DNA from: Pasteurellaceae bacterium RH1A
Lineage (GTDB): Bacteria; Pseudomonadota; Gammaproteobacteria; Enterobacterales; Pasteurellaceae
Direction of reading: 5' to 3'
NCBI GenBank assembly: GCA_012221805.1
Contig: CP015195.1
Coordinates: forward strand, 1,163,771 to 1,227,770
DNA: 64,000 nucleotides
The translations under genes were made by a program, and so were the position numbers. Positions 51,528 to 52,915 of this stretch are shown here, piece after piece (position 1 is the stretch's first letter; each line of letters begins with the position of its first letter). Under the pieces are notes generated by a model, which saw only the letters and a program-made list of their open reading frames with translations, had not been told where the DNA came from and did no database searches.

Positions 51528-51990
51528 AGTTTATCTTGCTCTTTATAAGGGGCGAGCTACAAACTGGCAAGAGCGTTTGGAAGATTGGCTAATTAGAAAA
51601 CTCACCAAAGGCCAATACAGTCACTGCGAGTTAGCTATCTATAAGTATGATATTCGTGACCATTATTACAAAGAGGAGTGGTATGAGTGCTACTCATCCA
51701 GCCCTCGAGATGGTGGTGTACGTTGCAAAAATATCCACGTTTCAGACCTCTCTAAATGGGATTTAATTGAGTTACCTCACGTAACCGAGGCACAAATCAA
51801 AGCCTATTTTGAGCAAACCAAGGGGCAGAAATATGATTGGTGGGGTGTGTTGGGTATAGTGTTTGGCATTAAGCAAAAGAGAACCAAGTATTTTTGTTCT
51901 GAATGGTGCTTTAATGCCATTCAGAATAGTGATGAGGGTTGGCGATTTAGCCCAAATCAGTTGGCCGTAATTTTCAAAAAAGGAGTTTGA
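51520..51990 (+). CDS. Permuted NlpC/P60-like (YiiX/YaeF) hydrolase
   Basis: 156 residues. Key residues are in permuted order: histidine in KGQYSHCELAIYK and cysteine in YFCSEWCFNA, with a tryptophan-rich KYDWWGVLG between them, as in the YaeF/YiiX papain-like group. It may cleave cell-wall peptides or lipids, or deamidate. Similar genes stand at this position in Haemophilus FluMu-like phages. The stop overlaps the start of the methyltransferase leader frame (TGATG). Confidence 0.8.
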   Translation: MYKVYLALYKGRATNWQERLEDWLIRKLTKGQYSHCELAIYKYDIRDHYYKEEWYECYSSSPRDGGVRCKNIHVSDLSKWDLIELPHVTEAQIKAYFEQTKGQKYDWWGVLGIVFGIKQKRTKYFCSEWCFNAIQNSDEGWRFSPNQLAVIFKKGV

Positions 51991-52915
51991 TGATGGGAAA
52001 AGCAAGGCATAATTTTAACAGACAGACAGACAGACAGACAGACAGACAGACAGACAGACAGACAGACAGACAGACAGCATAGCCCGATTTAAACAGGCCC
52101 CGCTACCCTTTACAGGTCAAAAGCGGATGTTTCTTAAGCACGTAACACAAGTTTTACATGAGAATATCACAGGAGATGGCAAAGGCTGGACGATTATTGA
52201 TGTATTTGGCGGAAGCGGACTACTTGCCCATACCGCAAAACGTGAAAAGCCCTTGGCACGAGTGATTTACAATGACTTTGATGGCTACGCCAAACGGTTA
52301 AAACACATCAAAGACACCAATAAACTGCGCCAAGAAATCTTCAAAATTGTTGATGGAACAGTACAAAAAAATAAGCGAATGAGCAAGGAGTTAAAGGCTG
52401 AAATCATTAGTAAAATTAATGAGCTTAAGGGCTATAAAGATCTAAACTGTCTGGCTTCTTGGCTCTTGTTTTCAGGCCAGCAAGTGGCCACCTTAGACGA
52501 CCTCTTCAGCCACGATTTTTGGCACTGCGTACGCCAAAGTGATTACCCTGAGGCCACGGGCTATCTTGATGGCATTGAGGTTATAAGCGAGTCCTTCCAT
52601 ACTTTGTTGCCTAGATTCAGCGACAGAGACAAGGTCTTACTATTGCTTGACCCACCTTATCTTTGCACAAGACAGGAGAGCTATAAGCAGGCGACTTACT
52701 TCGATTTAATCGACTTCTTGCGATTGATTGACTTGACTAAGCCTCCTTATATGTTCTTTAGTTCGACTAAAAGTGAGTTCATTCGCTTCATTCATTATAT
52801 GGTTGAGAGCAAGAGGGAGGGCTGGCAAAATTTTGAGGGAGCGGAGCGAATTGTGGTAAATGCCTCGGCTAGTTATTCAGGCAAGTATGAGGATAATTTG
52901 GTGTATAAGTTTTAG
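51990..52915 (+). CDS. Phase-variable D12-class adenine-N6 DNA methyltransferase (currently OFF)
   Basis: The methyltransferase frame runs to 52915. Motif I DVFGGSGLLAH and motif IV LLLLDPPYLC are present; further motifs include VIYNDFDGYAKRL. The body resembles the non-specific adenine methyltransferases Hin1523/Hia5 of Haemophilus Mu-like phages, which replace mom. Reading back from the first in-frame ATG (52127) the frame continues through ARFKQAPLPFTGQKR, the expected N-terminus, into a (CAGA)14 tract. The only good starts before the tract (ATGATG at 51990/51993) are in another frame and end at TAG 52080. With 12 or 15 units the frames would join. Translation from 52127 alone would lack the substrate-binding N-terminus. 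Confidence 0.88.
52019..52074. repeat. (CAGA)14 simple-sequence contingency tract
   Basis: Fourteen perfect tetranucleotide units plus a partial CAG. No stop codon arises in any frame through the tract. Each unit changes the frame by +1, so slippage switches the downstream methyltransferase. Confidence 0.97.

Follow-up and report, generated by a model that had tools for sequence, protein, structure and literature searches.

A tetranucleotide repeat tract as a putative gate on a Mu-like prophage adenine methyltransferase, in the position that com occupies in related phages

At the right end of a Mu-like prophage, we found an adenine methyltransferase gene whose reading frame runs back through 15 perfect ACAG units and has no start codon of its own before a conserved motif. 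As assembled, the gene is OFF. Tracts of this kind recur at the same place in related loci with varying numbers of units, and the loci that have them lack both com and the start-hiding hairpin that gate the same gene in other phages. The explanation that we consider probable is that synthesis of this mom-position methylase is gated by slippage of (ACAG)n, which would provide heritable bet-hedging of phage DNA protection.

The repeat tract and the methyltransferase gene

The window (the whole 64-kb stretch of DNA that we analysed) contains only one tetranucleotide array, which is also the top-scoring tandem array of any kind: 15 perfect ACAG units at 52018-52077. Even for four tandem tetranucleotide units, the number expected by chance is 0.00, and none were seen in shuffled sequence. 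A preliminary description of this DNA had reported (CAGA)14 at 52019-52074 between a pair of ATG codons and a methyltransferase, and this is the same array; with the flanking letters included (the CAG that follows, for instance), it becomes (ACAG)15. The tract lies within the coding region, between the start codon and the methyltransferase domain, and the length of its unit is not a multiple of three. The features of the locus are as follows.

51520-51990, plus strand: upstream late gene of the PHROG 1128 family; its TGA overlaps ATG 51990
51980-51985, plus strand: ribosome-binding site AAGGAG, from the sequence
51990-52082, plus strand: leader frame (the OFF product), which starts at ATG 51990/51993, crosses the tract, and ends at TAG 52080
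52018-52077, plus strand: (ACAG)15 tract, a putative slipped-strand switch (from the repeat search; counts vary in relatives)
52019-52915, plus strand: adenine methyltransferase frame, open through the tract and without its own start before motif X
52097-52126, plus strand: motif X region APLPFTGQKR, with positions that are invariant in the alignment; lost if the start is ATG 52127
52199-52219, plus strand: motif I, DVFGGSG, for SAM binding (from the alignment)
52649-52660, plus strand: motif IV, DPPY, the adenine-N6 catalytic motif (from the alignment)

Translation from ATG 51990/51993 gives MMGKARHNFN(RQTD)n..A*, and this leader ends at TAG 52080, as had been described. The methyltransferase frame has TAA stops at 52010 and 52016. 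We looked for an alternative start that would give the full N terminus, and between these stops and ATG 52127 this frame contains no ATG, GTG, or TTG (and thus none before motif X), just one ATA at 52079. Because the methyltransferase frame has no start before 52127, the gene is OFF at 15 units (this count is from the assembly and may differ from the dominant count in a culture). ATG 52127 itself lies 3' of motif X, so a product that begins there should be inactive. The offset from 51990 to 52127 is 137 nt, or 2 mod 3, so gaining one unit or losing two restores the frame. In other words, 16 or 13 ACAG units would join the frames, which correspond to the 15 or 12 CAGA units given in the preliminary description.

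Judged by its family relationships at the sequence level, the gene product is an adenine-N6 DNA methyltransferase of the Hia5/Hin1523 type. Its motifs follow the order X-I-IV and include FxGxK and DPPY, and its predicted fold is Dam-like, as expected for the D12 class. Across 52 aligned relatives, nearly all positions of APLPFTGQK are invariant. The protein matches PHROG 56 (DNA methyltransferase). When the window protein alone was compared to Pfam and NCBIfam, no family (including PF02086) was significant; in a family-wide scan, PF02086 (the D12 class) matched 32 of 52 members. An AlphaFold model of the protein has a mean pLDDT of 92, and its best match among solved structures is Dam from E. 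coli; a search of those structures by sequence turned up just a weak match to a DNA methyltransferase. The protein is also 72% identical to two com-linked homologues from H. aegyptius NCTC8502, whose loci we take to be the named Hia5. Between tract-bearing genes, dN/dS is around 0.1, which shows purifying selection and implies that the enzyme is maintained. The earlier proposal that the protein is related to non-specific adenine methyltransferases is supported by these similarities and by M.Btr192IV, a tract-bearing homologue from a prophage of Bibersteinia trehalosi: the cloned enzyme methylates adenines essentially without exception, but its native host does not express it (PMC4996451). By analogy with these relatives, the window protein is likely to be non-specific as well.

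The placement of the gene in a prophage, in the mom position, is also supported. The surrounding Mu-like genes include MuA, MuB, the Mu portal, MuF, baseplate J, and a tail fibre, and the methyltransferase gene lies at the prophage's right end, where the gene order is as in phage SuMu.

We also noticed some other features of this genome. The prophage seems to be inserted in a surface-lipoprotein gene (window positions ~16959-17830 and 53030-53575, with 53639-55039): the N-terminal part, with a lipobox, is to the left of the prophage, the C-terminal part, of the TbpB/FHBP_C type, is to the right, and a Slam gene adjoins the interrupted gene. Inside the prophage, at 37070-37140, there are 3.9 copies of the 18-bp repeat CCTGAAGAGGCTCAAGCA. 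Elsewhere in the genome (L159; G000:C1:204707-204786), a 16-unit ACAGC tract lies towards the 3' end of a reading frame resembling, by eye, an FkbM-type methyltransferase, and this might be another contingency locus. Of the repeat signatures published for B. trehalosi, this genome has the ACAGC tract, though in a gene with a different beginning, and lacks the CGCAA tract. Judged by a single protein, its closest named genomes are those of Mannheimia and Glaesserella (82%).

Repeat tracts in related loci

We scanned bacterial genomes and viral contigs and identified 134 distinct loci with homologues; 132 of these were long enough to classify. We considered a locus to have a tract if there were at least four tetranucleotide units just 5' of motif X. 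By this definition, 25 of the 132 loci have tetranucleotide tracts at the same place. The unit is ACAG in the window and ACAA or CAAA, or AAGC/GCAA/AGCA, elsewhere. The tracts of these 25 loci range from 4 to 166 units, as counted in assemblies, which may be wrong, above all for the long tracts. (The extreme is L077, whose tract was assembled as 166 GCAA units and is in the ON frame; some other relatives have short, contracted tracts.) Where a tract locus has upstream sequence, there is an ATG 5' of the tract, the frame is open through it, and a ribosome-binding site is usually present. The methylase is in the ON frame in 5 of the 25 tract loci and OFF in the other 20; this share of ON alleles does not differ clearly from one third.

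The number of units varies even between loci that are otherwise the same. Three pairs of loci with 100% identical flanks (compared over 500 bp upstream and 778 to 843 bp downstream) have unlike counts: 23 versus 24, 5 versus 12, and 5 versus 40. The preliminary description had proposed phase variation by tract length, with a tract that was invariant among relatives as evidence to the contrary, and this comparison of relatives supports the proposal.

The tracts are not always strict switches, which the preliminary description did not foresee. Eleven of the 25 tract loci have a start codon in the methylase frame between the tract and motif X (usually ATG; one locus has GTG only), and several of these have a ribosome-binding site in front. 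In those 11 loci, the tract is therefore not a strict ON/OFF switch. No such in-frame start is present in the other 14, which include the window locus.

Four loci have poly-G in place of the tetranucleotides (9, 11, 10, and 11 for L155, L228, L230, and L232, respectively). The poly-G lies about 40 nt 5' of motif X. These homologues lack com and have a Gallibacterium-like position in the tree, and we consider poly-G to be a second kind of repeat gate.

Mutual exclusion of the tract with com and its hairpin

Many relatives of the window gene have another gate. In phage Mu, the Com protein binds a hairpin in the mom mRNA and promotes its translation; this hairpin adjoins a translation-inhibition structure that holds mom's start codon (PMC6483171). 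The Com protein in that study is from a Mu-like prophage of Haemophilus sputorum (PMC6483171), which is also the species of our locus L012. In phage SuMu, com is directly upstream of the methyltransferase homologue.

Using a Com profile, we found com upstream of the methyltransferase in 77 of the 132 loci (Pfam confirmed the family for two examples) and in none of the 25 tract loci (uncorrected Fisher p = 5e-12). A search of whole prophage records found no com in any of 16 records with tracts and found it in all six controls. By the same search, there is also no com near the window gene or anywhere in the window's genome. The hairpin follows the same pattern: a stem of at least 7 bp over the ATG is present in 51 of the 77 com loci, in 0 of 25 tract loci, and in 1 of 30 others. 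The window locus has neither a Com element nor a stem that covers one of its two ATGs.

In the com loci, the 3' arm of the hairpin holds the ATG and the loop holds the ribosome-binding site. The stem is typically GCCATAG..CTATGGC, with several compensating versions. When com loci are aligned, the stretch 3' of com has repeated GAGYRYC-like elements, and the stem lies beyond these. SuMu fits the published SELEX motif for Com; the strict double motif fits just 11 loci, nine of which are among the 77 with com. Since the aligned regions show looser GAGYRYC-like copies, we do not claim the strict double motif for all com loci.

In ten further com loci (L005, L016, L032, L034, L042, L132, L133, L144, L153, and L233), com, the elements, and the hairpin precede an inserted gene, which is followed by the adenine methylase. 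The com/element/hairpin region is up to ~830 nt before motif X in these loci, and the inserted gene is C5-cytosine-methylase-like (PF00145) where tested. From their gene order, these look like two-methylase cassettes under one gate. At another locus (L120:3742-3818), about 18 TAGG units lie just 5' of com, and six near-identical relatives have about two, so com itself may have acquired a repeat.

The window lacks the com and hairpin module of roughly 230 nt and has the repeat tract at that place instead, a correspondence that goes beyond the preliminary description. In many relatives, the same PHROG 1128-type late gene precedes either com or a tract. The distance from the end of this gene to motif X is ~330-400 nt in many of the com loci and 105-194 nt in most of the tract loci where the gene was found; this difference indicates that a local module was swapped. 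Mapped onto a quick protein tree with 122 rows, in which some branches beyond Pasteurellaceae are long, the presence of a tract requires 16 changes, and at least 11 of these are forced by well-supported branches. Among independent pairs that differ in having a tract, com has the opposite pattern in about 7, about 4 are ties, and none has the same pattern (median p 0.016). Recombination between phages, rather than repeated new origins, may explain how tracts are interleaved on the tree. We lean towards the view that Mu-like phages of Pasteurellaceae have repeatedly replaced Com and its hairpin with a gate of slipped-strand repeats on the same broad-specificity methylase, which would give a phage-borne contingency locus for restriction resistance, with ON and OFF particles coexisting.

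Interpretation and comparison to known systems

In the explanation that we favour, synthesis from this late gene in the mom position would be gated by slipped-strand changes in the (ACAG)n that separates a strong start site from motif X. The frame would be continuous and the gene ON at 13 or 16 units; at 15 units, translation would stop just past the tract. Many related phages gate the same gene with Com and the start-codon hairpin, and either gate would prevent untimely synthesis of a broad and potentially harmful methylase. Com would give timed expression; the repeat would give random but heritable expression. During lytic growth, ON phages would modify their own DNA broadly and escape restriction, and OFF phages would avoid the cost. 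Besides the broad pattern across relatives, this explanation includes several steps that we infer: slippage in culture, activity of the protein, expression in the lytic phase only, and a benefit in restricting hosts.

The tract could instead serve the host. If the prophage methylase were ON in a subpopulation of lysogens, genome-wide 6mA might alter host gene expression, as in a phasevarion, and the preliminary description had suggested such a switchable effect. A methyltransferase gene with a variable tract fits this idea, and frame-shifting tracts are a hallmark of known phasevarions. However, the gene is the last of the prophage's late region and is expected to be silent in lysogens, and Com, which gates this gene in phage relatives, is a lytic-phase activator. 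Furthermore, M.Btr192IV has its tract inside the coding sequence and was not expressed in its native host (PMC4996451), which favours a lytic-phase hedge of DNA protection over a host phasevarion. We consider the phasevarion unlikely. Of the preliminary interpretation, then, the anatomy, the phase-variable nature of the gene, and its OFF state hold up, but the effect on host expression does not.

It is quite unlikely that the tract froze the gene OFF and left a relic without function. The gene is OFF in the window's assembly, as are most of the tract loci, and the contracted tracts of some relatives could be signs of decay, but the frame is intact with all of its motifs, tract-bearing genes are under the purifying selection described above, and both ON alleles and identical-flank pairs with unlike counts exist. 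That the tract is no switch at all, with the methylase made at any length from a start inside the frame or through re-initiation past the leader's stop, seems very improbable for the window locus. The in-frame starts 3' of the tract in 11 of 25 loci point in this direction, and re-initiation is conceivable because TAG 52080 is 45 nt before ATG 52127. But where those relatives have an ATG after the tract, the window locus has CGA; ATG 52127 would begin the protein 3' of motif X, which is invariant in 52 relatives; and the only other candidate, ATA 52079, abuts the repeat and has no ribosome-binding site in front of it.

A tract in one homologue was already known. The coding sequence of M.Btr192IV contains 12 CAAG units, and its authors described this Bibersteinia homologue as highly similar to hia5; their 2016 report called the significance of the tract unclear and made no link to com or to other phages (PMC4996451). 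Like the window gene, M.Btr192IV and M.Btr189ORF5700P are prophage adenine methylases with a tetranucleotide tract in the 5' part of the gene; their CAAG begins 63 bp past the start codon, while the window's ACAG begins 28 bp past ATG 51990. Our literature search, which was incomplete, found no further reports of this tract or of its exclusion with com. The family-wide pattern of tracts and their mutual exclusion with com appear to be new.

Other known systems share part of this arrangement. Hia5 and Hin1523, from Mu-like prophages of Haemophilus, belong to the same family by sequence and are in a mom-like place, but com is present and a tract is missing in the H. aegyptius homologues (L006 and L009), whereas the reverse holds for the window. 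In com-mom of Mu and in its SuMu-type relatives, as in the window, a DNA-modifying enzyme encoded after the tail genes is held back at translation. Mu does this with Com and a hairpin, and its enzyme is Mom; the window has neither com nor hairpin and encodes an adenine methylase. In mod and other phasevarion genes, too, the frame of an adenine methyltransferase is shifted by a simple-sequence tract close to the 5' end. In contrast to these, the window gene is a phage late gene for a solitary methylase that is probably non-specific and probably silent in lysogens. Unlike the regulation of the host by mod phasevarions, the target of the window methylase is probably protection of the phage's DNA.

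Most of the known contingency loci are host genes, which serve surface structures or restriction-modification. Here, a family of temperate phages seems to apply contingency switching to its own DNA-protection enzyme, in trade against a classical translational activator. This makes it possible to test when mobile elements prefer random heritable switching over timed regulation. Hia5-type enzymes also serve as tools for marking chromatin, and 6mA maps of strains or phage stocks that carry such elements could shift with the repeat count.
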